Shown here in pieces: positions 22,422-58,993 of a stretch of DNA of 64,000 nucleotides (position 1 is the first letter of the stretch; each line of letters opens with the position of its first letter). The position numbers were made by a program, and so were the translations under genes. The stretch lies in the NCBI RefSeq assembly GCF_019392195.1, contig NZ_JAHXKI010000002.1, forward strand, positions 310,001 through 374,000, given 5' to 3'. The notes below the pieces were generated by a model. That model was not told the DNA's origin, searched no databases, and worked only from the letters and a program-made list of their open reading frames with translations. Source of the DNA: Marinobacter sp. F4206. GTDB lineage: Bacteria > Pseudomonadota > Gammaproteobacteria > Pseudomonadales > Oleiphilaceae.

Positions 22422-22488
22422 GATGCTTCCCCTTCAAAATTGTGTTTTGACACTTTAGAAAGGCCAGCCCCCAGATCTTCTGTTTGGG

Positions 22489-22523
22489 AACGCTGCCCTG
22501 TTATTCCACTTAACGGCAGCGTT
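22489..22523. repeat. Inverted repeat overlapping the flagellin 1 promoter
   Basis: AACGCTGCC (22489-22497) and GGCAGCGTT (22515-22523) form a perfect 9-bp inverted repeat with a 17-base loop. The right arm covers part of the sigma28 -10 element. It could be an operator or a hairpin at the start of the transcript; no T-tract follows on the minus strand. Confidence 0.45.
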
Positions 22524-22536
22524 TTCCATCGCTTTA
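22510..22536 (-). promoter_or_regulatory. Sigma28 (FliA) type promoter of flagellin 1
   Basis: TAAAGCGA (22529-22536), an 11-base spacer and GCCGTTAA (22510-22517) on the minus strand match TAAAGTTT-N11-GCCGATAA with the exact spacing. It leaves a leader of about 80 bases before the flagellin ATG. Confidence 0.75.
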
Positions 22537-22584
22537 GCGTCCATACCTGAATTTATGTAACAAACTGTTAAATCGACTGTATTA

Positions 22585-33549: not shown

Positions 33550-34812
33550 CTACAACCTCAAGTCGGCTTCACCAAGCGGCAGCACCCCTTTCAAATCAAA
33601 AAGTACGCCATTGTCTTTTAAATAAGTGCGCAAAGCCTGCGAGGACTTTTCTGCATATTCCCGATGTGGAACAGCTAAGAGCAATGCGTCATAAATTCCG
33701 GTTTCAGGCGTATCAGTAAGCGATACACCATATTCATGTTCCGCTTCATCACTATCAGCCCAGCAATCTGTAATGTCTACCACACAACCAAAATCTTGAA
33801 GCTCTTTCACCACATCAATCACGTGCGTATTCCGCAGGTCCGGGCAGTTCTCCTTGAACGTAAAGCCCATAATCAATACGCGAGCGGAGGCCACGGCTTG
33901 TCCTGATTTAATCATTGCTTTAACCAGCTCAGCGGCCACGTAAGCACCCATTCCATCGTTTACCCGTCTACCTGCCAATATAATCTCGGGATGATAACCG
34001 ATCGCCTGGGCTTTATGAGTCAGGTAATAGGGATCCACGCCAATACAATGCCCACCGACGAGCCCCGGCTTGAACGGGAGGAAATTCCACTTGGTACCCG
34101 CGGCAGCAAGCACTTCGTGCGTATCGATTTTCAATCGGGCAAAAATCATCGATAGCTCGTTAATCAGCGCGATGTTCAGATCGCGCTGCGTGTTTTCAAT
34201 AACTTTTGCCGCTTCGGCAACTTTTATGGAACTGGCCTTATGAGTGCCCGCTGTAATGATCCCCGCATAGAGGGTGTCTATTTCATCGGCAATTTCAGGC
34301 GTGGAACCCGAGGTCACCTTCTTGATGGTTGTAACACGGTGTTCTCGATCACCCGGATTAATTCGTTCCGGACTGTAACCGGCAAAGAAATCTTTATTGA
34401 AGATCAGGCCGGATTCACGCTCCAGAACCGGGACACAAACCTCTTCGGTAGCCCCGGGAAAGACCGTGGATTCGTAAATAACAATATCACCTTTCTTGAG
34501 AACTTTACCGACACTTTCGCTTGCACGAATCAGCGGACTCAAGTCCGGCGATTTGTATTCATCAATCGGAGTGGGGACCGTAACGATATATATTTCGCAT
34601 TCAGCAATCTCTTCAAGGGAGTCGGTGAATGATAGATTCGAGGAGGCCCTTAATTCCTCTCGTGAAACTTCGCGAGTGAAATCCACCCCATCCTTGAGCT
34701 CAGCAATCCTCTTGCTATTGATGTCGAACCCCTTAACCCGGCGCTGCTCGCCAAACGCGGCGGCAAGCGGCAGGCCGACATAACCAAGACCAATAACAGC
34801 AATATTCTTCAT
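33550..34812 (-). CDS. UDP-N-acetylglucosamine 6-dehydrogenase-like protein (TviB/WbpA family)
   Basis: This 420-residue NAD-dependent nucleotide-sugar dehydrogenase oxidises C6 of a UDP-HexNAc to the uronic acid. The Rossmann motif [18 protein letters not shown] is at the N-terminus, [10 protein letters not shown] in the middle, and the catalytic-Cys region [15 protein letters not shown]. The pattern fits the Vi-antigen TviB/WbpA branch, giving UDP-GlcNAcA. The start at 34812 is set by AGGGA a few bases upstream and the Rossmann motif. It is the last gene of the locus, 76 bases after pseI. A second, WecC-type dehydrogenase lies at the other end. Confidence 0.85.
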
Positions 34813-34888
34813 TTTAAGTCCCTTTGCCATGATTACACCTGAACAATGCTTTCCGTCCTCACCCTTTGAACCGGAGCCATCCCAATTC

Positions 34889-35941
34889 CTACCGGTAATC
34901 CGTTTTCGCGACCGGTGAGTGTCGTTCAATATCTCTCGTCGCTACCCTGCCGACAACCTCTTTCAGATACTTGGGAGCCAAACCGTAACCAGGGCGCACA
35001 CTACGAATGTCGTTTTCCCGGATCATCTGCCCCGATTTGATATCCTGAACAAAATACAGCGAACGGCGGAACTGGGCGTTACCCTGCTCGCTGGACTTCC
35101 TTCCATAATCTACCCGGCCCAACGCTTTCCACGCGGTTTTACTATCCCGACATAACGCCGCAAGATCCTCCGGCTCCAATGAGAAACTGTCGTCCGGGCC
35201 TCCTCCCTGCCGGTCGAGCGTAAAATGCTTTTCTACAATCGATGCGCCGAGGACGACACTGGCAATGGCTGTGGTGTTATCCAGGGTGTGATCGGACAAC
35301 CCGGTAACCAACCCAAAACGATCCTGCATATCGACAATAGTACGCAAATTATAGTCCTCCGCCGGAGCCGGGTAACCACTGACACAGTGCAGGATAGCGA
35401 GTTGGGTACAGCCAGCATTTCGGGCGGCGTCGACCGCTTCCCGAATCTCCTCCGCGTCGGCCATCCCGGTGGAAATGATCATCGGCTTACCGGTGCGGGC
35501 AACGTATTCAATAAGGGGCAAATCTACCGCCTCGAATGAAGCAATCTTATAGGCCGGGGCACCGAGCTCTTCGAGTAAATCGACCGCAGTGGTATCAAAC
35601 GGTGAGCTGAAAATAGTAATCCCCAGCTTACGGGCGTGATCAAAAAGTGGCTTATGCCATTCCCACGGCATATGCGCTTCTTCATACAATTCATAAAGCG
35701 TGCGGCCATCCCATAAGCCACCTTTGATACAGAACTCCTCTGCCTGGGAATCGAGTGTAATCGTGTCCGGGCGATAGGTTTGCAGCTTAACGGCGTCTGC
35801 TCCCGCTTTAACCGCTTCCTCGATGATCCTCATTGCCGTTTCAAGTTTGCCGTTATGATTGGCCGACAGTTCCGCAATAATGTACGGGGATTGATTTCCG
35901 GAGATCTCCCGCCCATCGATAGTAATCATCGCCTCAGTCAT
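34889..35941 (-). CDS. pseI: Pseudaminic acid synthase PseI
   Basis: This 350-residue enzyme condenses 2,4-diacetamido-trideoxy-altrose with phosphoenolpyruvate to form pseudaminic acid. It has the NeuB-type TIM barrel ([29 protein letters not shown]-like [19 protein letters not shown]) and a C-terminal SAF/antifreeze-like domain ([20 protein letters not shown]). [11 protein letters not shown] is typical of the Pse rather than Neu branch. It is the last step before activation and follows pseH directly. The start is ATG 35941; a GTG 4 codons earlier is an alternative. Confidence 0.93.
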
Positions 35942-35956
35942 AAATATGTCCACAGG

Positions 35957-36466
35957 TTACGAATTCGAATTCTGCCACTCTGAAGCAAGAATCCCGAAAC
36001 AGACAATGTCATGGTATTGCTCACCATCGAAAAACTGGTCCCGGAGTGTGCCTTCAAGTGTAAACCCCAGCGCGCGGTGGAACCTGATCGAACGCTCGTT
36101 AAATCCAATGGCCTGGCCACAGAGCTTGTGTAACGACATGGTTCCGAAAGCATGCCGAAGCGCAGCCTGACCCAGTCCGCGCCCTGTCCCACTCCTTGCA
36201 TTCGGAGCCAGATAAAAGCCCCAGTCGGCGATTGCCGGCCATCGCGTTTCGGAAATATTGACGAAGCCACACGGAATGCCGTCGAGCTCGTATACCAGCA
36301 GCGAGACTCCTTGCTCCTTCTGAGCGCGCTCAAACCAGTGCTTGTGCTCTTCCGGAGCAATCTCATGACTGCTGTACATATACCTTCGCACATCCGGATG
36401 ATTACGCCAGGCAAGAACGCGATCGAGATCCCCGGAAACCATCGGCCTCAATTCACCTGTCGTCAC
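35957..36466 (-). CDS. pseH: UDP-4-amino-4,6-dideoxy-N-acetyl-altrosamine N-acetyltransferase PseH
   Basis: This 169-residue GNAT-fold enzyme acetylates the 4-amino group of the PseC product with acetyl-CoA, the third step of pseudaminic acid synthesis. It has the GNAT acetyl-CoA region (YLAPNARSGTGRGLGQAALR) and an N-terminal RPMVSGDLDRVLAWRNHPDV typical of PseH. Its start overlaps the pseG stop by 1 base and pseI follows closely, consistent with a single transcript. Confidence 0.92.
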   Translation of the reverse strand: MTTGELRPMVSGDLDRVLAWRNHPDVRRYMYSSHEIAPEEHKHWFERAQKEQGVSLLVYELDGIPCGFVNISETRWPAIADWGFYLAPNARSGTGRGLGQAALRHAFGTMSLHKLCGQAIGFNERSIRFHRALGFTLEGTLRDQFFDGEQYHDIVCFGILASEWQNSNS

Positions 36467-37563
36467 TAGGCCCCTCCAAGCATTTGCGCAACAACCCGCC
36501 TGACTCCCTGTCCGTCACACAGAGAAGCGGCTCGATCGCTCATGGCTCGGATATGGGCCGGATCAAGCAACGACCTTACAGCACCGGCCAAGGATTCCGA
36601 TACATGCGTTCTGTCCCCGACGGCAAGGGCGGCGCCGGTTCTAGCCAGCGCGTCAGTCCCGGGTTTCTGATTGGCGGCCATCACGACCAACAGAGACGGC
36701 AAACCAAGGCAGCATCGCTCCCAGGCGGTGCCTCCCGCGGCGCCGATGGCCAAGTCCGCGTCAGACATCAGTGACGCCATATCGCCCACATTCACCATCA
36801 TCCGGGCGCGCAGACGCATCCGCTGAATCAACTCCGAAATTTCCTCAGCGTGAGGAGCCCCCCTCCCCATCACCACGGTAACGTGACAGGATTTCAGCTC
36901 TTGAACTGAATCCAGTGCGCGCAGTACATCGGACGTTATGTTCTCACTATCGACGCCGCCCATGCTCACAAGGATAGTTTGAACTGCTCCGGATCGCCGC
37001 CGCGCGATACTTATGGCCCGCTTATCGGCAAATTCAGGTCGCAACAAAGCGTAACGGAGGCCCATCAGTTTCACCGCAGTCTGAGGCAGCAAACCATCGT
37101 AATCGCTCTGACTGCGCCCAAGATTCTGATCCAGTAAAACATCACAAACGTGGGGGCGATCGGCAAGATCATCGATCACCAACAATGACTCCACGCTGTC
37201 GGCAAGAGCCTGCTCCCACCGGGCATCCAGGGCGTAGTGGTCTACGATAAGCCAGTCGGGCGGAGCATCCTGAATTGCGGCGATGGTGTCGGCGGCATCT
37301 GTTTTCCAGTCCGTCCGAAGCCAGCCTTCATGGCCGGTAAGAACTTCGCTATCCGATGGGCCGCGTTCCGGAAGCATCCTGACCTCATGGTCTTTGCTTT
37401 TTACCAGGCTCTCGAGGTTCCCGGGCAGGTTTCGCATCACAAAGATACAGCGAGCGTGCTTTGCTTGAAGGACATCGGCAAGCGTCAGGCACCTCATCGC
37501 ATGGCCGGTACCGATTTCCAGAGACGCATCAACCCGGAAAACGACAACCATTTTACCCGCCAT
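36466..37563 (-). CDS. pseG: UDP-2,4-diacetamido-2,4,6-trideoxy-altropyranose hydrolase PseG
   Basis: This 365-residue enzyme removes UDP from UDP-2,4-diacetamido-trideoxy-altrose. It is a GT-B-fold hydrolase related to MurG, with the N-terminal RVDASLEIGTGHAMRCLTLA (containing the catalytic-His region GTGHAMRC) and the C-terminal AIGAAGGTAWERCCLGLP. It lies in the pseB-C-F-G-H-I row, overlapping both neighbours slightly. Confidence 0.93.
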   Translation of the reverse strand: MAGKMVVVFRVDASLEIGTGHAMRCLTLADVLQAKHARCIFVMRNLPGNLESLVKSKDHEVRMLPERGPSDSEVLTGHEGWLRTDWKTDAADTIAAIQDAPPDWLIVDHYALDARWEQALADSVESLLVIDDLADRPHVCDVLLDQNLGRSQSDYDGLLPQTAVKLMGLRYALLRPEFADKRAISIARRRSGAVQTILVSMGGVDSENITSDVLRALDSVQELKSCHVTVVMGRGAPHAEEISELIQRMRLRARMMVNVGDMASLMSDADLAIGAAGGTAWERCCLGLPSLLVVMAANQKPGTDALARTGAALAVGDRTHVSESLAGAVRSLLDPAHIRAMSDRAASLCDGQGVRRVVAQMLGGA

Positions 37564-38257
37564 GACTGTTCCGGGCCCTCAACGCTTCAAACATATACTC
37601 CGCAGATTCCCAATCCTCTGGGGTATCCACGTCCTGAACGCGATACCGGGGAACGGGTACTGCCACCGAGTCCGGACTGAAGATGACGCGCTCCTCCATC
37701 CAGGCATCCGCCGTCCCCCAGTAAAACTGACCGGCATCATGCCACGCCTCCTCAAGATCCTGGGATCGCGTTGCAAATTGTAGGGGATCAACCATCTCCA
37801 CCCGACCACCTTGTTTCAATCGCAGTGCTCGTTGGATCGGGAAGGCATAACTCGTTACTGAAAATGCAAAGCTGCAGCCGGACTCACGCAAACGCTGCTC
37901 TCCCTGCTGAATGTCCTCGACGGCCAGGAAGGGCGCCGTGGCGTATATGCAGCAGGCAAAGTCAACGGGGAAACCCTGGCCGACCAACCAGTCAACCGCA
38001 TGCCGAATCACGGGAACCGTCCCGGCATAATCGCCAGACAGCGTCGCGGGTCTTCGGAAGGGAACCTCAGCACCATACTCCCGGGCTACGCTTGCGATTT
38101 CATCATCATCCGTCGACACAATGATTCGATCAAAACAGCCGCTGAGCTTCGCGGCATCAATGGACCAGGCGATCATGGGCTTGCCAGAAAAATCACGAAT
38201 GTTCTTTCGGGGTATGCGCTTACTTCCCCCACGGGCAGGAATAATCGCGACCTTCAT
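37553..38257 (-). CDS. pseF: Pseudaminic acid cytidylyltransferase PseF
   Basis: This 234-residue enzyme activates pseudaminic acid with CTP to CMP-Pse, the donor for glycosyltransferases. The N-terminal nucleotide-binding motif IPARGGSKRIPRKNIRDFSG and the downstream IVSTDDDEIASVAREYGAE are those of the CMP-nonulosonate synthetase family. It overlaps pseG by 11 bases and pseC by 4, indicating translational coupling. Confidence 0.94.
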   Translation of the reverse strand: MKVAIIPARGGSKRIPRKNIRDFSGKPMIAWSIDAAKLSGCFDRIIVSTDDDEIASVAREYGAEVPFRRPATLSGDYAGTVPVIRHAVDWLVGQGFPVDFACCIYATAPFLAVEDIQQGEQRLRESGCSFAFSVTSYAFPIQRALRLKQGGRVEMVDPLQFATRSQDLEEAWHDAGQFYWGTADAWMEERVIFSPDSVAVPVPRYRVQDVDTPEDWESAEYMFEALRARNSHGG

Positions 38258-39414
38258 GCCGCCAGCGCCTTCGTCAGTGCAGCAACCACGGTGTCCTGCT
38301 GATCAAACGTCAGGCCGTGGAACATAGGAAGACTGATTGCTTCCCGGTAGTAACGCATGGCCTCCGGAAAATCCTCGGGCGAAAACCCCATGTCAGCGTA
38401 ATACGGCTGGGTATGTACCGGAATATAGTGCAGATTGACGCCGATCCCCAGCGCTCTCAAGGATTCAAAGACTTGCCGATGGTAAGGGCCGGCGCCAGTG
38501 AAATGCAGGCGCACAACGTACAGGTGGAGCCCCGAATAGCTGTCTGGATGCTGAAAAGGTGCTGTCAACGGAAGATCGGCAAGAAGGGTGTCATAGCGTT
38601 TCGCCAACTCGTGACGTTTGGCCACAAAACTGTCCAGCCGATCCATCTGGCTGACACCAAGCGCTGCCTGGAGCTCGGTCATCCGGTAATTGAACCCAAG
38701 GCCAACCTGCTGGTAATACCAGGGGCCGTCCGGTTCGTGCGTCATTCGGTCTGGATCCCGGGTAATCCCGTGGCTTCGCAAAAGCTCCATACTCGCGGCA
38801 AGTTCCGGGTCGTTGGTCACGGCCATACCGCCTTCCGCCGTGGTCACTATTTTGACCGGATGGAAGCTGAAAACTGTGATATCGCTGTAGCGACCGTTCC
38901 CGATGAATTCGCCCCGGTATTTCCCACCAATGGCGTGGGAGGCATCTTCAATCACCCGAAAACCATAGTGATCGGCCAGGGATTTGATCGCGGCCATGTC
39001 ACAGGACTGCCCACATAAATGAACCGCTACCACGACCTTTGGCAACCTACCTTCAGCCTTCGCGCGCTCCAGTTTGCGTTCCAGTGCCCGGGGACAGAGG
39101 TTGTAGGTTGCGGGATCGATATCGACAAAATCCACCCTGGCCCCACAGTAAAGACCGCAATTGGCGGATGCCACAAACGTCACAGGCGATGTCCAAAGCC
39201 AATCTCCTTCCGACAGCCCCAGAGCCGCGCACGCAATATGCAGGGCCGACGTCGCACTGTTCACTGCCACGCCAAAGCGGGCGCCGACGTGTTCGGCCAC
39301 TTTTTGTTCAAAGGCCGGAACTTTTGGCCCCTGGGTCAGGAAATCTGACTGAAGAACCTCAACAACCGCATCAATATCCTGCTGGGTAATTTCATGCCGA
39401 CCGTAGGGAATCAT
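38254..39414 (-). CDS. pseC: UDP-4-amino-4,6-dideoxy-N-acetyl-altrosamine transaminase PseC
   Basis: This 386-residue PLP-dependent aminotransferase of the DegT/DnrJ/EryC1 family converts the PseB keto-sugar to the 4-amino sugar with glutamate. The PLP-binding Lys lies in FSFHPVKIVTTAEGGMAV. The N-terminus (IPYGRHEITQQDIDAVVEVL) and VIEDASHAIGGKYRG match the PseC branch. It sits 3 bases after pseB and overlaps pseF. Confidence 0.95.
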   Translation of the reverse strand: MIPYGRHEITQQDIDAVVEVLQSDFLTQGPKVPAFEQKVAEHVGARFGVAVNSATSALHIACAALGLSEGDWLWTSPVTFVASANCGLYCGARVDFVDIDPATYNLCPRALERKLERAKAEGRLPKVVVAVHLCGQSCDMAAIKSLADHYGFRVIEDASHAIGGKYRGEFIGNGRYSDITVFSFHPVKIVTTAEGGMAVTNDPELAASMELLRSHGITRDPDRMTHEPDGPWYYQQVGLGFNYRMTELQAALGVSQMDRLDSFVAKRHELAKRYDTLLADLPLTAPFQHPDSYSGLHLYVVRLHFTGAGPYHRQVFESLRALGIGVNLHYIPVHTQPYYADMGFSPEDFPEAMRYYREAISLPMFHGLTFDQQDTVVAALTKALAA

Positions 39415-39417
39415 TGA

Positions 39418-40416
39418 TCAAAAACTCCCAATCTTCTCGCGATTCGAATCGATCCAGCTCTGCAACTCCTGGTCCGACATCCACTCTGAATTATTGTCAC
39501 TGGAGTAGATAAACCCTTCCGGGACTCTTTTGCCGTCCTTGATCCGATTCGCATCCGAACTCCAATCGTGAATCGCCGGCAAAATCTTGAAGTGTTCCGG
39601 ATACTCGTACGTGTAGTAAGCGTCTTCGGCCCCAATCATCTGTTCGTGCAGCTTCTCACCGGGGCGGATACCGACGATCTCCTGCTTCGCTTCAGGGGCG
39701 ACCACCCGGGCCAGATCCGTCACCTTCATGGAAGGAATCTTCTTCACATAGATCTCGCCACCTTCCATGTCCTCAAAGGCGTGCCAGACCAGTTCAACAC
39801 CATCTTCCAGAGAGATCATGAAGCGTGTCATTCGCTCATCGGTAATCGGCAGAACACCTTTCTCCCTGAGCGACATGAAGAACGGAATCACCGACCCTCG
39901 AGAACCCATCACGTTCCCGTACCGTACGACGGCGAAGCGGGTATCGTGACTTCCCGCGTAGGAATTGCCAGAAACAAACAGCTTGTCCGAGGCGAGCTTA
40001 GTAGCGCCGTATAGATTGATGGGACTGCTTGCCTTGTCGGTGGAGAGAGCGACAACGCGCTTAACGCCCTTATCGATGCAGGCATCAATCAGGTTCATCG
40101 CACCATTGATGTTGGTCTTGATGCACTCGAACGGGTTGTACTCGGCAGTCGGAACGATCTTTGTCGCGGCGGCATGCACCACGTAGTCGACACCATCCAG
40201 GGCACGATACAGGCGATCCTTGTCACGGACGTCACCGATGAAGAAACGAACCCGATGATCGCCAGAGAATTTCTTGGCCATCTCCCACTGTTTCATCTCA
40301 TCCCTGGAGAAAATAATGACTCGCCTCGGATTGAATCTCTCGAGGAGCATGGGCACGAAGGTATGGCCGAACGAGCCAGTGCCGCCGGTGACCAGGATGG
40401 AGCTGTTGTTAAACAT
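39418..40416 (-). CDS. pseB: UDP-N-acetylglucosamine 4,6-dehydratase (inverting) PseB
   Basis: This 332-residue soluble SDR-type dehydratase/C5-epimerase catalyses the first step of pseudaminic acid synthesis. The NAD motif is VTGGTGSFGHTF; the catalytic Tyr-Lys pair is in NLYGATKLASDKLF, with STDKASSP before it. The retained Tyr and the short soluble form separate it from the membrane-bound WbpM-like enzyme encoded at 58994-60964. It begins the pseB-C-F-G-H-I run. Confidence 0.95.
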   Translation of the reverse strand: MFNNSSILVTGGTGSFGHTFVPMLLERFNPRRVIIFSRDEMKQWEMAKKFSGDHRVRFFIGDVRDKDRLYRALDGVDYVVHAAATKIVPTAEYNPFECIKTNINGAMNLIDACIDKGVKRVVALSTDKASSPINLYGATKLASDKLFVSGNSYAGSHDTRFAVVRYGNVMGSRGSVIPFFMSLREKGVLPITDERMTRFMISLEDGVELVWHAFEDMEGGEIYVKKIPSMKVTDLARVVAPEAKQEIVGIRPGEKLHEQMIGAEDAYYTYEYPEHFKILPAIHDWSSDANRIKDGKRVPEGFIYSSDNNSEWMSDQELQSWIDSNREKIGSF

Positions 40417-43919: not shown

Positions 43920-45629
43920 CTAGCAGACCGCTTCGGTACAACGAGCGAGACGTTCATATATTTCCGGAAGCAGTTCAAGCGCCTGATTGAGCCTTTGCCT
44001 CCTGCATTCACGGTCCAACGCATAAGATAGTGCTGCCAACTCCGCGTGGATTGGGTCGACCTCGGCGTTTGTATCCTTTTTCGAAGACTGCTCTTTCAAA
44101 GCATTCTCTAGTCTTGACAGCATGCTACGCCTCACGGGCCAGCCTGCACCTAACGGTTCAACCGTCCAACTCCCCAAATGCGTCACCAGAGGCCCTGAGC
44201 CATCATCAGGCAACCAAAGTTGGTCCTCTTTGATATCGGGAACAACGAGCGTCAAAGGTAACGAGCGAAGGATACGTTGCAGGTTGCCAAGCAAATTCCC
44301 CAAGGCAACTATGCATGCGTCATCAGTAGATGAAGCGGCTGCCGTATACAATTGGTCGCAAACCTGAGGCCCCAGACGTTGCCAAAGCATTGGTTGCGAC
44401 CGTTCGAATCGATAAACGATATCCCGTGGTAAGCGGAGTGACATAAGGCGACGGCGGACTTCCAGCTCTGCCGACCTGAAAGACCGGACTGACGGGTAAC
44501 TTCCGCTGGGAAGTCTGTAAAGCAGACAGGAAAACTTCTGGATGACTGTAGTTCCCAAAAACTCAGGGGCGGGCAAATCTGTAATTGCCTCACTGACCAA
44601 AGAGGCTTCATGCAGTCCTTGCCCTTTCCTTCTAGACCCGTATATTTTCAGGAGATAACCTTCACCGTCGCTTACAAACCTTAGTCCTGCCACATCCTGA
44701 ATACCGGTTTGATGCCAGGTGATTCGCTGCAGAGCGTCAGCTCCATCAACCAGTTCACGATACACCGCTGACGCAACCGCCTCTCGTTTTTCCCTTGCTA
44801 TGAGAGGCCAGATGGTTTTCTCCGGCTTCGTTGCCGGCATCAGTACCTTCCCGTGAAAAAACAACGCATCAACCTTAGTCTTTTGCTTTTGAAGCCAAGC
44901 CAGATCTTTGACCAGACTGACAACACGATTTGTCATTTGCCTCAGCAACAAAATGGCTACGATCGCCACAATCAGACCTGGCGGAGAACCCACGATAAAA
45001 TCTGCCACCAAAAACCCAAACGCGATAAAGAAACCAACGCCCCCTGCGACCTTCAACGTCTGGTTCAGCCGGGCGTTCAGCTTCTCTTTAAATCCAGAAC
45101 TTATGAAGCTCAAGCCGAGTAGCAGCATCGCCACTATCATTCCGTGGAGGGAAATGACTATAGCTACCCCCGGATACAGCCAAACCATTGTTGCCAGGGA
45201 TATGAGTATGAAACATAAACTGGCCAAAGCACGTGTGTATCTCTGGTACGCACTCCCGGCCACCTCGTCCTGATTCTGGAAAAGAATGACTTTCCTACTC
45301 CTGGCAAGTAAGCGGACTGTTCCGCTACCAGTGACCCAATCAATGGCTCGCTCGGCCAAGAGATGTAGGAGGAAGAACGCAACAGTGGCTCCGCTCAAAG
45401 ATACAATCAGGAAATCACGATCAACGCTCGACCAAGAGGCCGGAAAATAACGGGGAATTCCCTCAGAGCCTAGAAGAATGACAACTTTTAAAGGCAGAAA
45501 AAATGCCAGTAAAGAAGTTAACTGAGAACTCAGGGTGAGCAATACAACCCAAGACGTCTGCCACGGCACAACCCTGAAGAATTTATTCCCGAGCGATAGA
45601 CACCATCGAATGAACGGCATAAGACTCAT
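43920..45629 (-). CDS. Fusion of ABC-exporter-like membrane domain and kinase-like domain
   Basis: This 569-residue protein has no name I can give. Residues about 1-245 hold about six membrane segments (SWVVLLTLSSQLTSLLAFFL, ALASLCFILISLATMVWL, LIVAIVAILLLRQMTN among them). They are arranged like the membrane half of an ABC exporter, but no ATP-binding cassette follows. Residues about 290-500 look like a divergent aminoglycoside/choline-kinase-type fold: YLLKIYGSRRKGQGLHEASL as the Lys/Glu lobe, VVPDIKEDQLWLPDDG in the place of the catalytic HxDxxxxN loop, and THLGSW in the place of the metal-binding IDWE. A final helical part follows. It overlaps the C5-epimerase stop by an ATGA, so the two are coupled. 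The role is unknown. Confidence 0.6.
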   Translation of the reverse strand: MSLMPFIRWCLSLGNKFFRVVPWQTSWVVLLTLSSQLTSLLAFFLPLKVVILLGSEGIPRYFPASWSSVDRDFLIVSLSGATVAFFLLHLLAERAIDWVTGSGTVRLLARSRKVILFQNQDEVAGSAYQRYTRALASLCFILISLATMVWLYPGVAIVISLHGMIVAMLLLGLSFISSGFKEKLNARLNQTLKVAGGVGFFIAFGFLVADFIVGSPPGLIVAIVAILLLRQMTNRVVSLVKDLAWLQKQKTKVDALFFHGKVLMPATKPEKTIWPLIAREKREAVASAVYRELVDGADALQRITWHQTGIQDVAGLRFVSDGEGYLLKIYGSRRKGQGLHEASLVSEAITDLPAPEFLGTTVIQKFSCLLYRLPSGSYPSVRSFRSAELEVRRRLMSLRLPRDIVYRFERSQPMLWQRLGPQVCDQLYTAAASSTDDACIVALGNLLGNLQRILRSLPLTLVVPDIKEDQLWLPDDGSGPLVTHLGSWTVEPLGAGWPVRRSMLSRLENALKEQSSKKDTNAEVDPIHAELAALSYALDRECRRQRLNQALELLPEIYERLARCTEAVC

Positions 45630-46603
45630 TTACCGAGGACGCTCTTCAAGCGGGCTTTGAGCTTGGCTTTGAACCCCCGATTAACTGAAGCCACGGGCCG
45701 CTCAATAGTTTCAGGACCGGCGACGTCACTTTTCTTACCAGAACCCATTTCGTACATTCCCGCCGTAGCACCCGAGGTGTCAGATTCCTTCCAGCGATCG
45801 AGAATCTCTCTGACTACCGGCGGGCAATCCGGAGTAAACAGTTGCTCAAGCTGAACACACTGAATCTGGTGATAATGTTTTGAGCATGGTTTCCCAAATA
45901 TGTTGTATGCAGACCAATTCCCCATATCAAACCTGGGCAACATTGCTTCCACCGCCGAAAGCCCCTTATCCAGCAGATCATCAGCAAGTTGGCTATTGAA
46001 CCTGTGTGAATACTCATGCAAACCCAGCAGCGCAAACAGCATCCCGTTCAGAACGAACGGTTTCTCGCCACCCTCACTGGCAAACTTCAAGTACCACCAG
46101 CTGTCGTCACTAAGCTTCTCAGTAAAGCCTCCCTCTTCCGTTTGAATACAGTAACCTCGAACAGCCCCGTCGGCCACCTGGAGATACTTCCGGTCACCGG
46201 TTGCATCAAACGCCCGAATCAGCAACAAAATAGCCTGCCCTTGCGCATGCCCCGATCTCCAGCCTGCGCTCATTTTGTTTTTGAAGGGATAGTTATACTT
46301 CCACAGGACAGCATCCGCTTGGGTAACAGCATTTTCTACAAGCCAGTCAGCACAATTAATCATGCCTTCAAGGTTGGACACTTGAGGTTCTGAACCGTTA
46401 GATGTTCTCAGGTCACGGCCCTCTGACCAAGAGTATGACAGCAGCACAGGTGATTGCGACGGATTCTCCTTGTTCCAGTAATCTAACCCCTTGTCCGCCA
46501 CTGCAACTATTGATCTTTGATGACCTACAAGCTCCCCTTCTCTTTTTCCATAATCACTTAACGGAATGCCCTTATCATCCAAATTTACTGTTGCTGCGAC
46601 CAT
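45626..46603 (-). CDS. D-glucuronyl C5-epimerase family protein
   Basis: This 325-residue protein matches the C-terminal catalytic domain of heparan-sulfate D-glucuronyl C5-epimerases, which turn GlcA into L-IdoA in a polymer. Signature stretches are GWRSGHAQGQAILLLIRAF (114-132), VLNGMLFALLGLHEY (184-198) and KHYHQIQCVQLEQL (242-255). They correspond to the W-x-S-G-x-A-Q-G-Q, LNG-LxxLxGLY and Tyr/His active-site parts of the family. There is no signal peptide, so it would act on a cytoplasmic or lipid-linked substrate. A GAGGGG site precedes the ATG. A sulfotransferase, a heparinase-like protein and uronate-forming dehydrogenases lie in the same locus. Confidence 0.8.
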   Translation of the reverse strand: MVAATVNLDDKGIPLSDYGKREGELVGHQRSIVAVADKGLDYWNKENPSQSPVLLSYSWSEGRDLRTSNGSEPQVSNLEGMINCADWLVENAVTQADAVLWKYNYPFKNKMSAGWRSGHAQGQAILLLIRAFDATGDRKYLQVADGAVRGYCIQTEEGGFTEKLSDDSWWYLKFASEGGEKPFVLNGMLFALLGLHEYSHRFNSQLADDLLDKGLSAVEAMLPRFDMGNWSAYNIFGKPCSKHYHQIQCVQLEQLFTPDCPPVVREILDRWKESDTSGATAGMYEMGSGKKSDVAGPETIERPVASVNRGFKAKLKARLKSVLGK

Positions 46604-46694: not shown

Positions 46695-48149
46695 TCAATC
46701 GAGGCCCATGTAGATGGTTTTGAGTTCCGCGGCTCTTGTCGCCCAGGTAGGAATCGAATCGATGGGAGTCACTTCCCGCGAAAAAAGTTCGTCCAACCGA
46801 TCAAGGTTGTCGAAGTCAACTACTGAAAAGCCGCCATCCAAGCTACCCTCCAGGGCTTCGGCAAGAGACTCGCTCACCATGAGTGGTCGCCCCTCAGCCA
46901 CCACCTCAAAAGGCTTAATTGCGGGGACCAGACGAGTCAGCAGGTCTGCCTTCCGAGGCAAAGCAACTAGGTCCATCAGCTGATAACAGGCAGAAACCTC
47001 ATGCCGTTCTACCCTCCCCGCAAAAATGACGTACTCCGCAACGCCAAGCTCAGCTGAAAGGCTCCTGAGCTTTCCCTCGTGTTTACCGCTGCCGACCAGC
47101 AACAGCGTCGGACGCGCATGTGAGGGAGTCCGAGCCAAAGATTCGATTAAAAGATCCAGACCCTCGTATTCAACCAACGAGCCGAGATAGCCGATCACGC
47201 GTCCATTCTCTGGCAAAGCAAACCTTGATCGCAGGTTTTCAACCGAAGTTTCTGAAAATTCTTCTACGTCAGTAACATAGGTCGCATTGCCTACTACGGA
47301 GATTTTGCTCTCAGGAACCCCCTTACCCGCCAACCATCTCTTCAAGGCCTCCGAAATAGTCACGACCTTGTCCACGTAAAAGCACGCAGCGATTTCTCGT
47401 TTCTCGCAATAATGATAGTGCTCTGATTGCCGATAGTTGGGCTGGGAAAAAGCTCGGGTTACATGCCATAAACCCCGAACCTCATAGACTGAGGTAATGC
47501 CGAGCAATGCACCCGCTTTGGCGGCAGCGAAGCCGTTCAGATAATTCGAAGCTGCATGGATGACCGAAGCCCTGCGATCGCTTGCAGCTTCGGCCAGCAA
47601 TCGCCCATACACCTCGATATACTCAGAATCCGGGGTCCGCAGAGACACTCCGGCGTTAGGCCAGAACTGGAACTCTACACCCTGATAAGTTGTGTAACGA
47701 ATCCGACGTTCCGTTTTGTGGGCAGGTAAATCCCACGGGTAGCCAGGCCTTACTACCGCGTTGACCCCAATACCCAATGCCTCGAGCCCTTGAGCCAAGG
47801 CAGTGGAACGTGAGGCGTATCCGGAGGGATCGAAAGCTCCGCAGCTATGAAAGGCCAGCATCACACAGCCATTAAATGGCTCCCGTCTTCCGTTTTCCTT
47901 TGAAATAGGATCATCCTTGGACACCAAAAAATCACGCATGTCCGCGATTTTCCGCTCCTGCTGCCTGACTCGCCCGCCGGTAAATCGCCACTTTCTCAAT
48001 ATCCGAAGACTCCCGGTAAGATCGCCCTGGGAATAAGCTTTAAGAAATGAAAAGGGAAAGGTCTGCGAAAGAACATTAAACCCCATTGCCAAAAAAGGGC
48101 GCACTTTCCCACCTTTCACGAAGAAAAGGTATTCTCTCAGCAGCCTCAT
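46695..48149 (-). CDS. Glycosyltransferase family 4 with N-terminal extension
   Basis: This 484-residue GT4 glycosyltransferase has an N-terminal extension of about 100 residues and an acceptor domain with SRSTALAQGLEALGIGVNAV and VIHAASNYLNGFAAAKAGAL. The donor domain carries IGYLGSLVEYEGLDLLIESL and the metal-free nucleotide site VPAIKPFEVVAEGRPLMVSE. It is a paralogue of the 54593-56383 product: both share an AASNY motif and YEVRGLW at equivalent places. The ATG at 48149 is supported by a CGGTGA site; a codon 7 residues earlier is possible. Confidence 0.85.
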   Translation of the reverse strand: MRLLREYLFFVKGGKVRPFLAMGFNVLSQTFPFSFLKAYSQGDLTGSLRILRKWRFTGGRVRQQERKIADMRDFLVSKDDPISKENGRREPFNGCVMLAFHSCGAFDPSGYASRSTALAQGLEALGIGVNAVVRPGYPWDLPAHKTERRIRYTTYQGVEFQFWPNAGVSLRTPDSEYIEVYGRLLAEAASDRRASVIHAASNYLNGFAAAKAGALLGITSVYEVRGLWHVTRAFSQPNYRQSEHYHYCEKREIAACFYVDKVVTISEALKRWLAGKGVPESKISVVGNATYVTDVEEFSETSVENLRSRFALPENGRVIGYLGSLVEYEGLDLLIESLARTPSHARPTLLLVGSGKHEGKLRSLSAELGVAEYVIFAGRVERHEVSACYQLMDLVALPRKADLLTRLVPAIKPFEVVAEGRPLMVSESLAEALEGSLDGGFSVVDFDNLDRLDELFSREVTPIDSIPTWATRAAELKTIYMGLD

Positions 48150-48209
48150 ACAATCACCGGATAAACACAAGCCAACCGGCGACAGGGAACCGGATCATTT
48201 CCAACGCCT

Positions 48210-50147
48210 CTAGCCATCAGCCTTCCTATATAAGTGCAAACCTTGGCCCTGCTCGATAGCCAAGCGCCCTAGCTTCTCGGAACCCCTCATACTTAGGTGG
48301 CCGGAATCATAATAAACGGGAACACCTTCCAGATACCCTGAACAAACCTTTCCTTGACAAAGCATATCCCTGACACTAATCGTGTTTACGTTATCAATCT
48401 TCTGAGCAAGATTTACAATAAACTCGTTAACCTCATAGTCACCGTCATTCTCGGTCATGGCGGCGTTCATGCAATCCATAAATGGAATTTTCAGAGCTTT
48501 ATATTCGCAAAATCTATCGAAACTCGGTATTACCGGAATTTTTAGCGCAACAATTACTGACTCAGCATTATCACTGAGGTACTTAATAGTCTTCTCAACC
48601 TCCTGGTAAAAACCATCCTTCCGATATGCAGTCCAACTTGCAGCTACAATAACCGTTTTATATTTTTTTACTTCGGCCATCATAGCCTCATTAAAAGCTG
48701 AGCAAGTTTGACGATTTCTTTTTGCATAGAATCCAGAGTTTTCAAGCAGAGGAGGGCACGCCGAATGCGCAATATTTCTCATCGGCACCTTTAGTTCATC
48801 GGCTATTGCCTTAAAGTATCCTACATAGTGTGATGCATTAGAATCGCCGAATATCAAAGTATCAGGCTTAGCTCCTTCCGGGCCAATAACACACTTGGGA
48901 TCATCCATCAGTTCCCGTCTGAAGTCGGGTCTTTGACAAACATAGGGGAAACGAGGTGCCGATATTGTTGCTTCCTCAAGTCCACTCAAAGCCGTCTGGT
49001 ATCCGCTCGGCGAAACCGGATCAACCATACCTTCCGAGGCGTAAATAAGTGCCCCTAGTGACAAGGAGGCCAGACTTGCTCCTCCCACCATTACCGAAGC
49101 GCGCTTCAATTTTTCTGGACGCCTGAACGGCGTTTCAATCAGGTAGTATGAAACAAGTGTCCCCAATACGATAACAGCAGCGCAGATGAGTCCCGACCAT
49201 AAGCCAAGTTCACCATAGGCATAGCGATAAAATGCCAGCACTGGCCAATGCCACAAATAGAGAGAGAATGAGATCTTCCCAATGAACCGAACCGGCCCAA
49301 GTGATAGGGCAAAACTTACTGGATTACCGGCGAATGCCCCACCAAAAATCAAGAGGGCTGTCGCTATGGTCGGCAGCAGAGACGCAATGCCCGGAAAACC
49401 GATATCGCGAGTAATTGTCATCAAGGAAATCACCAACAACCCCGCGCCGACAACAGAAGCCACGACACTAAACTGGCGACCGAGGTCAATTCGACTGTTA
49501 CTTAACGCGAGAAACGTCAACGCACCAAAGAGCAACTCGCCAGCACGGGTTGGGAGCATGTAATAGGCGAAAGCAGGATATTCCTTAACCGACCACGCGC
49601 TTAGCGCGAATGAGATCAGGGTCAACCCAACCGCTGACAGGATGATGCCGCGCTTCCCGTCTATCCTGAAAGCAAAAAAGATGATTGCCGGCCAAAGAAG
49701 ATAAAACTGTTCCTCTACCCCCAAAGACCACATATGAAGCAAAGGTTCGAATTCAGAGGAAGCCGCAAAGTAGCTGGTATCCAAGAACAGCCAGAAGTAG
49801 ACGTTGGCAGCCATAAAGATTGATGCGACCGATGAATAAGTCAGATCCAAAAGATCATCAGGCAACATCACCAGCCAGCCAAACACTAGCGTACAAACCA
49901 CCACAAATGTTGTGGCAGGCAAAATCCTCCGAAACCGCCTGAGATAAAACTCCTGAAAAGAAAAGGAGTCGTCCTGAAGCGTCTTGAATATAATCCCGGT
50001 TATTAGAAACCCTGAAATGACAAAAAATATATCGACACCAATAAAACCACCAGGAACCCAATCCTTGTTAAAGTGGTAAAGGACTACTGATAAGACTGCG
50101 ATTGCACGCAGGCCATCAATATCTAAGCGGTATTTGAGATGCTTCAC
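48210..50147 (-). CDS. Membrane O-acyltransferase with C-terminal SGNH domain (OafA-like)
   Basis: This 645-residue protein has an acyltransferase-3 domain with about ten helices (YRLDIDGLRAIAVLSVVLYH and FFVISGFLITGIIF at the N-terminus; LHMWSLGVEEQFYLLWPAII). The periplasmic SGNH domain has the catalytic Ser in DTLIFGDSNASHY near residue 430 and the Asp/His pair in YYDSGHLSMRGS near the C-terminus. Such proteins move acyl (usually acetyl) groups across the membrane onto surface glycans. It is a likely O-acetylase of the exopolysaccharide made here. Confidence 0.9.
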   Translation of the reverse strand: MKHLKYRLDIDGLRAIAVLSVVLYHFNKDWVPGGFIGVDIFFVISGFLITGIIFKTLQDDSFSFQEFYLRRFRRILPATTFVVVCTLVFGWLVMLPDDLLDLTYSSVASIFMAANVYFWLFLDTSYFAASSEFEPLLHMWSLGVEEQFYLLWPAIIFFAFRIDGKRGIILSAVGLTLISFALSAWSVKEYPAFAYYMLPTRAGELLFGALTFLALSNSRIDLGRQFSVVASVVGAGLLVISLMTITRDIGFPGIASLLPTIATALLIFGGAFAGNPVSFALSLGPVRFIGKISFSLYLWHWPVLAFYRYAYGELGLWSGLICAAVIVLGTLVSYYLIETPFRRPEKLKRASVMVGGASLASLSLGALIYASEGMVDPVSPSGYQTALSGLEEATISAPRFPYVCQRPDFRRELMDDPKCVIGPEGAKPDTLIFGDSNASHYVGYFKAIADELKVPMRNIAHSACPPLLENSGFYAKRNRQTCSAFNEAMMAEVKKYKTVIVAASWTAYRKDGFYQEVEKTIKYLSDNAESVIVALKIPVIPSFDRFCEYKALKIPFMDCMNAAMTENDGDYEVNEFIVNLAQKIDNVNTISVRDMLCQGKVCSGYLEGVPVYYDSGHLSMRGSEKLGRLAIEQGQGLHLYRKADG

Positions 50148-50210
50148 TTTTTCTCCTGGTTATACCTTGAAACCGTTAACCCCTTCCTAAGATCTTAAAC
50201 ATCAGAATCC

Positions 50211-51122
50211 CTAGCCAAAACTCACACTGAACCCGGAGTTAGTACTCTCAAAAACTGACAGCTCCTGCCTAAGAAGGTTTTTGGCCTCGACGATAAATTG
50301 ATTGTCTACCGACCTATCCCCTTTATACTTATTATCAAAATTCCTGCTTCTGAAGTCTGTGCACATAAAACTTCGAGCAGACTCTCTAGTGAGAATCGAC
50401 TTAAGATTCTCAATTACTTCATCCTCATGCCCGGAAATTTCTTCAAACTTTATAACAAGGTCAAAAGTCTTCCCTATTGCCTTTCGATAAAACTCCTTAA
50501 CGAAGCTCACATTTTTTCTTAGATATTCCTGATCATCTGAGTCCGGAGATATAAATTCCCGATAGCTATTTTTCCTAAAAGTGCGAGACATAACTATATC
50601 AACTGGATCACGCAATAGCAGGACATTCCTTTTCTTCCCTCTATACAGGTCACTCATTTTCCAGCCACTCATATGTGATGAGTTCACAATTGGAATATAA
50701 AGAGAATTTAAATCTATATCACTCAAATTTAATAGGTGGATAGCGTTTAAGGCTACATCCCGTTCTGTACCCTTGAGACGTGAGACAATGGAACTCACCG
50801 GCTTGGCGAACTTTACCTCCCCGCATGGCTGTACCAGTCCCTTTTTCAAAAGCAGGTCCTGAACCCAATGCGATCCACTTCCCCCAGCGCTATGGAGGAA
50901 AATAATTTCTGCGTCGTTCGAAACTCTTTGCTCACTGACCGAAAAAAGAACCTTGTAGAAATTCGTCCTGCTAGATATATTCGCTAACTCTTGCAACCTT
51001 GGCAGATGAGTGCGAACCTTCGAAGCTGCTCTTTTTTCAGAGGGTGTCTCACCCGGAAGCTCTGGCGAACCCAAGCACTTTTCAAAATAATTAACCAAGT
51101 CAGTCTGCCACTGCGTTTTCAC
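50211..51122 (-). CDS. Sulfotransferase (PAPS-dependent, carbohydrate type)
   Basis: This 303-residue protein has the two PAPS-binding signatures of sulfotransferases: the phosphosulfate-binding loop in IIFLHSAGGSGSHWVQDLL (H77 to W86 in place of the usual P-K-S-G-T-T-W) and the 3'-phosphate-binding motif LLLRDPVDIVMSR (R171 to S179). It has no signal peptide or membrane helix. The base composition is clearly more AT-rich than that of its neighbours, a sign of transfer. A PAPS source (cysC) and an anion permease lie at the upstream edge of the locus. The expected role is sulfation of the polysaccharide or its lipid-linked precursor; the acceptor is unknown. Confidence 0.78.
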   Translation of the reverse strand: MKTQWQTDLVNYFEKCLGSPELPGETPSEKRAASKVRTHLPRLQELANISSRTNFYKVLFSVSEQRVSNDAEIIFLHSAGGSGSHWVQDLLLKKGLVQPCGEVKFAKPVSSIVSRLKGTERDVALNAIHLLNLSDIDLNSLYIPIVNSSHMSGWKMSDLYRGKKRNVLLLRDPVDIVMSRTFRKNSYREFISPDSDDQEYLRKNVSFVKEFYRKAIGKTFDLVIKFEEISGHEDEVIENLKSILTRESARSFMCTDFRSRNFDNKYKGDRSVDNQFIVEAKNLLRQELSVFESTNSGFSVSFG

Positions 51123-51166
51123 CGATACACTCCAAATAAATCAAGACAGCTTAAGTGGTAATAGCG

Positions 51167-53047
51167 CTAGCCTTTGATTGATAAGTTCATGCCATGCTTG
51201 GCGCTGGCTGAAAAGGATAAAGACTGCTCCTCCTTGCCATCCCGCCAGACTAAAACTTCCGATATGGTCTCGTCTCTATCGTTGCTTTCAGCTTTGCTTA
51301 CCTCCGCATTGGAGGAGAAAGTAAACAAAGTCTTAAATCGGCCTCGGCTCTGTCCTCGCATTGCATACTGAAAGGCTGGAGATGGCTTGACCTCGCCATC
51401 GGACTCTGAGATCCAACCTCTCAATTCAGGGCTTTCATCCCCGAGGAACAAAGCCCCATCAACCGGACTTTCACTCGCCGATAGCACTGTCAATCGGGGG
51501 TCCATTTCGCACTCTGATTTATTGAGATAGATTGTAAACTCTTTATCGTTTTTGACTACAGAGTGCAGAGGAGACACGTTGAAACATTGTCGAACATCGT
51601 GGCTATGCCCCTTGATATCCGAAAAGTTATCAACGACCCATAACCAGTAACCTGGTTTAAAGATGAGGAAGCGGTCATAGCGGATGCTGTCAAATTCTTT
51701 GCATCGCGACCAACAAAAATACACGCCTGACGACTCACCGAAGCTTTCAATCGCGCTTCCAAACGGTTTGACGCCTCTTCTTTTGAAGTTGCGGCCATCG
51801 AATTCCAGTGTGTTGTGAGCACGAGTTGATTCACAATAGATTCGGTTTTCGTCTGAGTACCAAAATCCGTCAAGCCAGAGCCTAGACAGCCTTTTGGTCT
51901 TACCGATGTACCCATAACGGCCCGCATCAGTCAGAATTGGTACACCTCGGTCAAACCAAACAAAATTCAAATCGTCGGCATGCTTATGCGTTCGGGAATG
52001 AAAAGCCGCTGCATGTGCCAGATAACTGGATTGATTTTCCGCTAAAGATGCATTTGTAGTGTTGGCCCTAACAATCCAATAGCCTGATTTGTCGAAACCT
52101 CCGACTGGTGAATCGAAAAATTCCCCAGCTTGTCCTGAACTTGCAACAAACTGCATTTCGGGGGTCCGCCACTTTGTGCGCGCTTCCTCCACTGGCCGTC
52201 GCATGTCACGACTCGGAGAATCACCAAAGTTAACAAGAATGCCGTCTGGGTATACAAACCACGCAAGGACCTGCTCGATCCTTAAGGCACGTTCCGTAAG
52301 TTCAGGATCCGTTACCAACCCGGCATCCAACAAACCTTTTAGCGTTTCATACACCATCCGGTGATAGTCAGGTGAATGCTCTTTATGGACGCCCTCCTCA
52401 GTAAAGTGAAGCGCTAGTATTCGATGTAACCGATCAAGCCCTAAACGATAGGCTTCGGAGAGTTCCTTTGAAACGCTTGCAAACCTTCTCCCCAATGCCA
52501 ACTGCCCGGCAATCTGGTAATAGCCGTGATTGTTTTGATAGGTGATGTTCTTTTCAGCTGCCAAATGTCGAGCATGTTTCAACATACATCGCCAAAGCAG
52601 CCTTAGCTGTGACCTATTTAATAGGCGCTTGTTATGGGCAGCATCGATGAGGTACGCCAAACGATAAGCACGCATACCCACCGCCATGTCATACCAGGAA
52701 AACTCGGAGACAGAACGAGTTTTCTGGTGGAGTTCAGCCCATTCCAGAGCTACCTCAAGGCAGGGTGTGAGAAAATGATCTTCGCCTGTTTCGGAATAGG
52801 CTGCCAAAGGGACATCCAGCATATTCCAGCAATGTAACGCACAAGCCCAAGAACGTGATTTGGGGTCCGAGATAGTCCAGTCGATCGAGTCGTGTCCAAC
52901 TCGAACCGGCACGTTCTTCCCTACTGACCACCCAGTCTTCAGAATCCGGCGAGCGTTATCGACACAGCGCTGTGTGCTGATATTAGTGATTCGCTCGTAA
53001 GGATAAAATTCTCGACCCGCCAGCCGAGGAACTCCGAAACCAAACAT
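51167..53047 (-). CDS. Heparinase II/III family protein
   Basis: This 626-residue protein has an N-terminal alpha/alpha-toroid (about 30-300) with NNHGYY at 172-177 and EEGVHKEHSPDYH near 217-229. The C-terminal beta-sandwich domain of the heparinase II/III family has HKHADDLNFVWFDRG from 354 and DAGRYGY at 374-380. These contain the His, Asn and Tyr used by the family to cleave uronic-acid polysaccharides by beta-elimination. No signal peptide is seen, so it is probably cytoplasmic. Such genes are frequent in exopolysaccharide clusters, where the true activity is often untested. Its start overlaps the pyruvyl transferase stop as TAATG. Confidence 0.85.
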   Translation of the reverse strand: MFGFGVPRLAGREFYPYERITNISTQRCVDNARRILKTGWSVGKNVPVRVGHDSIDWTISDPKSRSWACALHCWNMLDVPLAAYSETGEDHFLTPCLEVALEWAELHQKTRSVSEFSWYDMAVGMRAYRLAYLIDAAHNKRLLNRSQLRLLWRCMLKHARHLAAEKNITYQNNHGYYQIAGQLALGRRFASVSKELSEAYRLGLDRLHRILALHFTEEGVHKEHSPDYHRMVYETLKGLLDAGLVTDPELTERALRIEQVLAWFVYPDGILVNFGDSPSRDMRRPVEEARTKWRTPEMQFVASSGQAGEFFDSPVGGFDKSGYWIVRANTTNASLAENQSSYLAHAAAFHSRTHKHADDLNFVWFDRGVPILTDAGRYGYIGKTKRLSRLWLDGFWYSDENRIYCESTRAHNTLEFDGRNFKRRGVKPFGSAIESFGESSGVYFCWSRCKEFDSIRYDRFLIFKPGYWLWVVDNFSDIKGHSHDVRQCFNVSPLHSVVKNDKEFTIYLNKSECEMDPRLTVLSASESPVDGALFLGDESPELRGWISESDGEVKPSPAFQYAMRGQSRGRFKTLFTFSSNAEVSKAESNDRDETISEVLVWRDGKEEQSLSFSASAKHGMNLSIKG

Positions 53048-54561
53048 TACCCCGATCCTTTCCCGATAAGATTTGCTAGAAGGCGGCGTATCCTGCCAGA
53101 AGAAATGTCCTTCTTTAAAAGGCGGGCATTTTCACGGGCAAGCGTCTCAACCCTTGCTGACAGTTTCTTCTCTCGTTCTTTCACACGCTCATAGGCTTCT
53201 TTTCGAGCGGCAACGACTTCCTTGTGCCTCGTGTTTCGGGAACGTAACGCCGTTTCAACTTTCTTGCGCTCGGATGCCGAAACAACCTCTGGCCACCAAG
53301 GCTGATATTGAACCGCTTCACTGCTAGACATAAACGGGGCTGGATCATTTGTTTCAGTCGTCAATTGCCTCAGCCACTCGACCGTTTCGGACTTCCGTTT
53401 TTCAATTTCCGGATGTAGGGAGGGGTAATCATCGATCGCCAAAAAAATGGCATTAACAATCTTATCCCGCTCGGCATCCATCAAACGGCCACCTAGCTCA
53501 AAACAGAATTGCTCCCGGCCAAGGTACTCGTATAAGCCGGGCATTTTGTGTCCATGCTCGGGAAAATAGGCGGTCACCGAGGGTGTTCCCGCCACATACC
53601 CAAGGATGGCAGCATGGAACCTCGACGTGTAGATGCAGTCGCAAGCGGACAATTCTCTAAGGTAATCTGATACCGATACAGGGCGATACAGACTAACCCT
53701 GGAGTCACCAAATTCTCCGCTTAATACGGCGTATAGCCCCTGCGTCAGATCTACATCCGCGTTGGACTGCATAAACAATCGGACGGTGAAACTCTGATCA
53801 GAAAGCAACTGCCGAAGAACAGCAAGGGTAGATTGGAATGAAGGTGATTCGGAGTATCCAGAGGCTGCGTAGCGCTCTGCCGCCTGTTTTGTTTCCAGTT
53901 CGCCCACTCTCAAGCCAGCGCTATCAGGGCGAACAGTCACAGCCAAGACCTTTTGGTGCTTTTGGCGTGACCGCTGCTTATCAGACCGCAAAAAGAACGC
54001 CATATCCGTAAAGACAGGAGCATCCGCCAGTAATCCCTGTGAGGCTAAAATCTCGGCGGACCGCGCGTCCCTCGCAGCAACTTCGGGGCCTTCACCCAAA
54101 ACGTTGTGCATGAAGTCAACCGAATCCTTCGTTTCAAAAGGCCCAAAGCTCGAAGGAACAACAGCGCATCGCAGTCCCGACGCCGATGCCGCAATTATCG
54201 GCAAGGATCGCCAGAAAAGGTTATGCCAGTTTTCATTGTGATGATAAGAGAAGAAGTGCTCGCCACCATTGACCAATACCAGATCGAACCCCTCAACCCC
54301 ACAGTCAGAAATAAAAGCCTCAGGGGAAGCAAGATACTTTATGGCTTCAGTTGCTGAACTGAAGACAGATTGAAATTCGCATTCAGGGAATTCCGAAAAA
54401 CTCTCCCTGCCACCCAGTTCCTCCCCGGTGCTGTTCAAAAAGAAAACCCTTAACCTTAGGGAATCGCCAAACGCGCGACGCAAATACTCCACGAGCCCGG
54501 CATTGATCGCAACATCTCCAATGTTGCTAGAATAGTGTCCGTAAAACAGCGCCACCTTCAT
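53047..54561 (-). CDS. Polysaccharide pyruvyl transferase family protein
   Basis: This 504-residue protein has an N-terminal pyruvyl-transferase domain (MKVALFYGHYSSNIGDVAIN with the GDxAI motif; CDCIYTSRFHAAILGYVAG as the second half motif). Its C-terminal coiled coil covers about residues 430-490 (AARKEAYERVKEREKKLSAR). Family members add ketal pyruvate from PEP to sugars of exopolysaccharides. The coiled coil is an addition not usual for the minimal family and may hold partners together. It is coupled to the heparinase-like gene downstream. Confidence 0.82.
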   Translation of the reverse strand: MKVALFYGHYSSNIGDVAINAGLVEYLRRAFGDSLRLRVFFLNSTGEELGGRESFSEFPECEFQSVFSSATEAIKYLASPEAFISDCGVEGFDLVLVNGGEHFFSYHHNENWHNLFWRSLPIIAASASGLRCAVVPSSFGPFETKDSVDFMHNVLGEGPEVAARDARSAEILASQGLLADAPVFTDMAFFLRSDKQRSRQKHQKVLAVTVRPDSAGLRVGELETKQAAERYAASGYSESPSFQSTLAVLRQLLSDQSFTVRLFMQSNADVDLTQGLYAVLSGEFGDSRVSLYRPVSVSDYLRELSACDCIYTSRFHAAILGYVAGTPSVTAYFPEHGHKMPGLYEYLGREQFCFELGGRLMDAERDKIVNAIFLAIDDYPSLHPEIEKRKSETVEWLRQLTTETNDPAPFMSSSEAVQYQPWWPEVVSASERKKVETALRSRNTRHKEVVAARKEAYERVKEREKKLSARVETLARENARLLKKDISSGRIRRLLANLIGKGSG

Positions 54562-57709: not shown

Positions 57710-57735
57710 ATTAATCCTATTCAAACTCGAAATGA

Positions 57736-58863: not shown

Positions 58864-58993
58864 TCGTGACTCCACTCAAATTCGGGTTCGAAGGTTTTCT
58901 CGACGGCGAAGAGCGCTCGTTCTGATAAAGCGGACGAGTCTAACACAATGGAGAAGGAGGATCTTTCACCGATCTGTAAAGCTCAGTAAAAGC

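Follow-up and report, generated by a model that had tools for sequence, protein, structure and literature searches.

What does a protein that consists of little more than the catalytic domain of the animal heparan epimerases do inside a bacterial cell? The window analysed here, a 64,000-nucleotide stretch of Marinobacter sp. F4206 DNA, contains a C5-epimerase-like gene on the minus strand (45626-46603) that encodes 325 amino acids, with an ATG start and a Shine-Dalgarno-like site, GAGGGG, immediately 5' of it. The original prediction was that this is a stand-alone glucuronyl C5-epimerase domain lacking any export signal, and that its substrate could be an N-acetylated uronic acid.

Fold and catalytic residues

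The domain prediction was borne out. The Pfam C5-epim_C profile (PF06662) matches at 145 bits against a gathering cut-off of 23.3 and is covered over positions 5-187 of 188, and the predicted W-x-S-G-x-A-Q-G-Q motif (here WRSGHAQGQ), the LNG motif and the Tyr/His region are all retained. With the protein as phmmer query, the crystal chains of human and zebrafish glucuronyl C5-epimerase (GLCE, EC 5.1.3.12; 6HZZ, 4PW2) were found at E-values of about 1e-20, and no other PDB chains gave significant E-values; no solved bacterial GLCE-type structure was found by sequence profile. The predicted (alpha/alpha)-barrel, the fold of the GLCE catalytic domain, is supported by an AF2 model made with 23 homologues as input (pLDDT 86.6, pTM 0.84). 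When this model is compared by VIA-align, human GLCE 6hzz ranks first, with Z 28.0 and 2.6 A over 243 residues; cellobiose 2-epimerase follows as the next different family, at Z 15.8.

Unlike GLCE, which produces the iduronic acid of heparin in animals and has N-terminal beta-hairpin and beta-sandwich domains and a membrane anchor, the window protein has none of these, and the N-terminal dimerisation domain of the animal form is likewise missing. The stop-to-stop frame around the gene is only 328 codons long and the N-terminus is hydrophilic, leaving no space for a signal peptide or anchor, so the claim that nothing exports the protein stands. The protein is thus cytoplasmic, which is an ordinary trait among bacterial members. 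It does stand alone, as predicted, but this is not novel: stand-alone bacterial C5-epim_C proteins are already known and are not rare, and many are publicly annotated as "D-glucuronyl C5-epimerase family protein". What is new here is a clade with a Glu-to-Lys change in the active site, which the original prediction did not mention, together with genomic evidence for amino-uronic substrates of the bacterial members.

The catalytic residues of human GLCE are Glu499, Tyr500, Asn510, Tyr560 and Tyr578 (PMC13308652); the C5 proton is moved by Tyr578 and Glu499, with Tyr578 as the general base (PMC12834895). Reading the alignment columns shows that three of these five positions are kept in the window protein, as Asn186 (46046-46048, minus strand, as for all residues given here; human Asn510), Tyr233 (45905-45907; Tyr560) and Tyr244 (45872-45874; Tyr578). 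The other two are changed, human Glu499-Tyr500 being Lys173-Phe174 (46082-46087). The expected catalytic tyrosines and glutamate are therefore present as far as Tyr560 and Tyr578 are concerned, whereas Tyr500 and Glu499 are replaced. Because two of the five residues differ, we do not file the protein as a D-glucuronyl C5-epimerase (EC 5.1.3.12); the best reading is that its mode of action is that of a uronate C5-epimerase.

Position 499 is Glu in 28 of 33 compared sequences (27 bacterial ones and the human enzyme), His in one and Lys in four; four further plasmid or phage homologues have Glu. The four Lys proteins form a single clade (support 100/99), which the sequences compared indicate is rare as well as well supported. 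This K clade spans two phyla and comprises the window protein and homologues from an Anaerolineaceae MAG (L034), a gammaproteobacterial MAG (L035; the same gene as in L023 and L029) and a Chloroflexota MAG (L080). Further residues specific to the clade are S31, I32, Y42, C84, H119, P182, M188 and H243. The Chloroflexota member (L080:3426-5375) has a long C-terminal extension that resembles a polysaccharide deacetylase by eye and has no Pfam match, and it adjoins a beta-helix protein.

Has the Glu-to-Lys change simply removed epimerase activity, leaving a protein that is catalytically dead or only binds? With the catalytic Glu gone, activity may be gone as well: the residue is kept in all 27 of those other bacterial homologues and in the human enzyme, where it has a proton-transfer role (PMC12834895). 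Against this, the remaining catalytic residues are kept, clade-specific residues (such as H119, K173 and H243) have changed together, and the Lys persists in proteins of two phyla that are 36-46% identical (44-46% between the window and Anaerolineaceae proteins), which suggests selection for function. We therefore consider a dead enzyme rather improbable; the conservation of Lys in the clade suggests an altered yet retained function, not decay.

A single-protein search of 60 other genomes from the genus found no close relative of the epimerase, which makes the gene look acquired. The GC content at 48000-52000 is 0.44-0.47, against about 0.50-0.58 around it, which fits horizontal acquisition. 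No close relative was found in the viral contigs searched. C5-epim_C proteins do occur in 15 Pseudomonas aeruginosa phage records and in one Bradyrhizobium phage, where they are annotated as hypothetical; their catalytic Glu, Asn and Tyr positions are kept. In one P. aeruginosa phage (L156:8713-10395; MK511001.1, 30794-32476) the protein has a signal-peptide-like start and its gene comes after that of a tailspike with a Gp49 pectin-lyase-like domain, and in the Bradyrhizobium phage (L157:5608-6693; OP596613.1) the gene follows that of a large protein with a weak beta-helix match. The phage proteins are possibly O-antigen-converting epimerases.

The surrounding gene cluster

The epimerase stop overlaps by 4 bases the start of the gene for a 569-aa membrane-type protein (43920-45629, also on the minus strand), so the two are probably translated together. 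That protein has no Pfam or PDB sequence match; it has N-terminal membrane helices and, by eye, a possible kinase-like C-terminus. On the other side, and like the epimerase on the minus strand, lie genes for a GT4-type glycosyltransferase (46695-48170) with a relative near the K-clade epimerase of L080, an O-acyltransferase with Acyl_transf_3 and SGNH domains in Pfam (48210-50147), a putative sulfotransferase (50211-51122; a weak match of 20.7 bits, below the cut-off of 22), a heparinase II/III-like protein without a signal peptide (51167-53047), a polysaccharide pyruvyltransferase (53047-54561) and a second GT4-type glycosyltransferase (54593-56383). These are followed by WecC, the UDP-ManNAc 6-dehydrogenase that is the source of UDP-ManNAcA (56411-57724; NCBIfam 746 bits, cut-off 459), WecB, a UDP-GlcNAc 2-epimerase (57736-58875; 536 bits, cut-off 210), a WbpM/PglF-like nucleotide-sugar dehydratase (58994-60964) and an initiating sugar-phosphate transferase of the Bac_transf type (60984-61553). 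WecB and WecC are thus about 10 kb from the epimerase on the same strand. A TviB-type UDP-GlcNAc 6-dehydrogenase, an alternative amino-uronate source, is also encoded on the minus strand (33550-34929; 634 bits, cut-off 592), so that all three enzymes predicted for the locus pass their NCBIfam cut-offs.

Parts of this arrangement recur in the Anaerolineaceae K-clade locus. There, the gene immediately upstream of the epimerase encodes a pyruvyltransferase with 25% identity to the window's protein over 395 columns, a heparinase II/III-like protein is 29% identical to that of the window, and at a distance of about 10 kb there is a WecC-type dehydrogenase whose 447 bits fall narrowly short of the 459 cut-off. 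That these three occur together in two phyla speaks for a functional link with the epimerase, though each family is common by itself. The Anaerolineaceae heparinase-like protein (L034:17269-19500) has a lipoprotein-like N-terminus, in contrast to the window protein, which has no signal peptide; the two may act at different cellular sites.

Elsewhere in the window is a pseudaminic-acid-type gene run (34889-40416), in which PseB-like scores 552 bits and the others were read by eye from the open reading frames, and a region (21600-26220) with flagellins and a large protein that appears Maf glycosyltransferase-like. These genes probably serve flagellin glycosylation.

Dehydrogenases and the choice of substrate

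Which uronic acid does the epimerase act on? The original prediction suggested that it could be an N-acetylated one instead of GlcA, on the ground that the locus has no recognised UDP-glucose dehydrogenase (Ugd). Indeed none was seen within the window, but the genome encodes one about 0.34 Mb from the epimerase (G000:C2:12153-13412), so that the organism has a supply of UDP-GlcA from outside the cluster. The idea that the genome is without UDP-GlcA is thereby ruled out, and the argument from the missing gene fails for this genome. Ugd is, moreover, often a housekeeping gene located outside polysaccharide clusters, so its absence near an epimerase is partly expected.

The protein could accordingly be an ordinary glucuronyl C5-epimerase that converts GlcA to L-IdoA in a polymer, using UDP-GlcA from the distant Ugd. 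The family name and fold agree with this, and among the neighbours the sulfotransferase-like protein and the heparinase II/III-like one are reminiscent of heparin-type chemistry. A further point in its favour comes from Bermanella marisrubri RED65_08024, which Raedts in 2013 is said to have described as a bacterial GLCE-like enzyme. Like the window protein a bacterial GLCE relative, it acted in assays on the GlcA of de-sulfated heparan sulfate/heparin (PMC4432689, PMC13308652); its own polysaccharide is not known (PMC4432689). Set against the glucuronyl reading are the replacement of both Glu499 and Tyr500, the WecC and TviB character of the cluster dehydrogenases, and the K-clade genome G460, a fragmented assembly in which only a WecC, and no Ugd, was seen. 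On balance we regard it as unlikely.

Comparison with other genomes lends indirect support to an amino-uronic substrate. For 13 loci from three phyla, dehydrogenases encoded no more than about 16 kb from the epimerase were scored with NCBIfam models; the nearest one is WecC, TviB or another HexNAc type and in no case (0 of 13) the UDP-glucose type; many of these dehydrogenases score under the equivalog cut-offs, so that their exact substrates are uncertain. In two loci beyond the 13, the dehydrogenase was classed by phmmer only. In G262, a single contig of 6.0 Mb, the sole NDP-sugar dehydrogenase is a clear WecC (657 bits), encoded 5 kb from the epimerase. This epimerase retains the full set of five catalytic residues and clusters with human GLCE. 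G196 and G469 have one HexNAc-type dehydrogenase each, near the epimerase, and no Ugd was seen in either. Three of these four Ugd-less assemblies (G262, G196, G469 and G460) are drafts. Since such organisms are without the usual route to UDP-GlcA, their epimerases most likely act on an amino-uronic acid, and for the bacterial family as a whole comparative genomics favours an N-acetylated uronic acid substrate.

Gene order tells a similar story for WecC. The order glycosyltransferase-WecB-WecC-large glycosyltransferase-epimerase is found in G133 and G262 (the G262 epimerase being L018:9157-10497). It is compact in L017:1601-10212 and L018:1753-10497, where the large enzyme is a double glycosyltransferase of 1300 aa, and in L017 KpsC/KpsS-like capsule genes follow. 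A WecC-type enzyme is present in each of the four K-clade genomes. In G460 the K-clade gene stands alone, without polysaccharide genes next to it. A specific tie between Lys-499 and WecC is ruled out by G133 and G262, whose Glu-type epimerases are also beside WecB/WecC. Within the order, WecC occurs in three of the six genomes with an epimerase, the window's included, against a background of 29 in 194 genomes; the difference is marginal (P about 0.05), and we do not take it as proof. The association is seen in Bacillota too: a Priestia megaterium plasmid (NZ_CP151784.1; L158:3530-11106) carries a C5-epimerase together with wecB and a dehydrogenase of the UDP-ManNAc type, and spore coat genes are nearby.

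Could the amino-uronate instead come from the TviB-type enzyme (33550-34929)? With this enzyme as the source, the substrate would be GlcNAcA or GalNAcA and the product L-IdoNAcA or L-AltNAcA. It scores above its cut-off and is encoded 10.7 kb from the epimerase, and in G246 and G708 the dehydrogenase nearest the epimerase is of TviB type. Yet in the window TviB lies at one end of the run of pseudaminic-acid-type genes and is separate from the decoration genes, and the K-clade relatives in L034 and G460 accompany WecC-type enzymes. We think this source of substrate quite improbable.

A candidate D-ManNAcA C5-epimerase

Our leading candidate function, which we hold at slightly short of evenly balanced, is that of a cytoplasmic uronate C5-epimerase with the GLCE/C5-epim_C fold that converts D-ManNAcA to L-GulNAcA during surface polysaccharide assembly. 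WecB and WecC would make UDP-ManNAcA, a glycosyltransferase would place D-ManNAcA in a lipid-linked or growing chain, and the epimerase would invert C5 of this residue in the cytoplasm before export, with Lys173 replacing Glu499 as the acid/base opposite Tyr244. We infer that the enzyme is active, that Lys173 is an acid/base, that ManNAcA is the substrate and that the chain is acted on inside the cell. Speaking against ManNAcA are the Ugd of this genome, which makes UDP-GlcA available, and the presence of TviB in the region. Two-base chemistry with a Lys/Tyr pair has analogues in other epimerases and in racemases, and by this analogy it is plausible in the window epimerase, which probably uses such a pair.

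There are precedents both for the product and for the site of action. For Vibrio cholerae VPS, C5 inversion of D-ManNAcA was put forward as the origin of L-GulNAcA (PMC3901696), the same step as we propose, and a 2015 review gave the C5-epimerase responsible as unknown (PMC4432689). Halobacterium salinarum Agl32 is, like the window protein, a stand-alone helical C5-epimerase, and it acts on a short lipid-linked glycan before this crosses the membrane (PMC13308652). The two differ in the five GLCE catalytic residues: Agl32 lacks every one of them (PMC13308652) and the window protein has three, so that it is not of the Agl32 type, which is marked by the loss of all five. From GLCE, in turn, it differs in its Lys/Phe pair, its cytoplasmic location and, likely, its substrate.

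More tentatively, and with clearly less confidence, the bacterial C5-epim_C proteins might mainly be N-acetylhexosaminuronate C5-epimerases (D-ManNAcA to L-GulNAcA and related reactions), with the animal heparan enzyme a GlcA-specialised offshoot and the window clade a variant that uses Lys/Tyr instead of Glu/Tyr. Action on ManNAcA would be new to the family. Identifying the enzymes behind C5 inversion of N-acetylated uronic acids in bacterial polysaccharides has proved difficult, and if the C5-epim_C family carries it out, several polymers would gain an assigned enzyme. The family would also provide a testable ancestor for the origin of the heparan epimerases, the Lys/Tyr variant would be a natural test of the residues behind the two proton transfers, and small cytoplasmic bacterial enzymes would become available for making glycosaminoglycan-like polymers.
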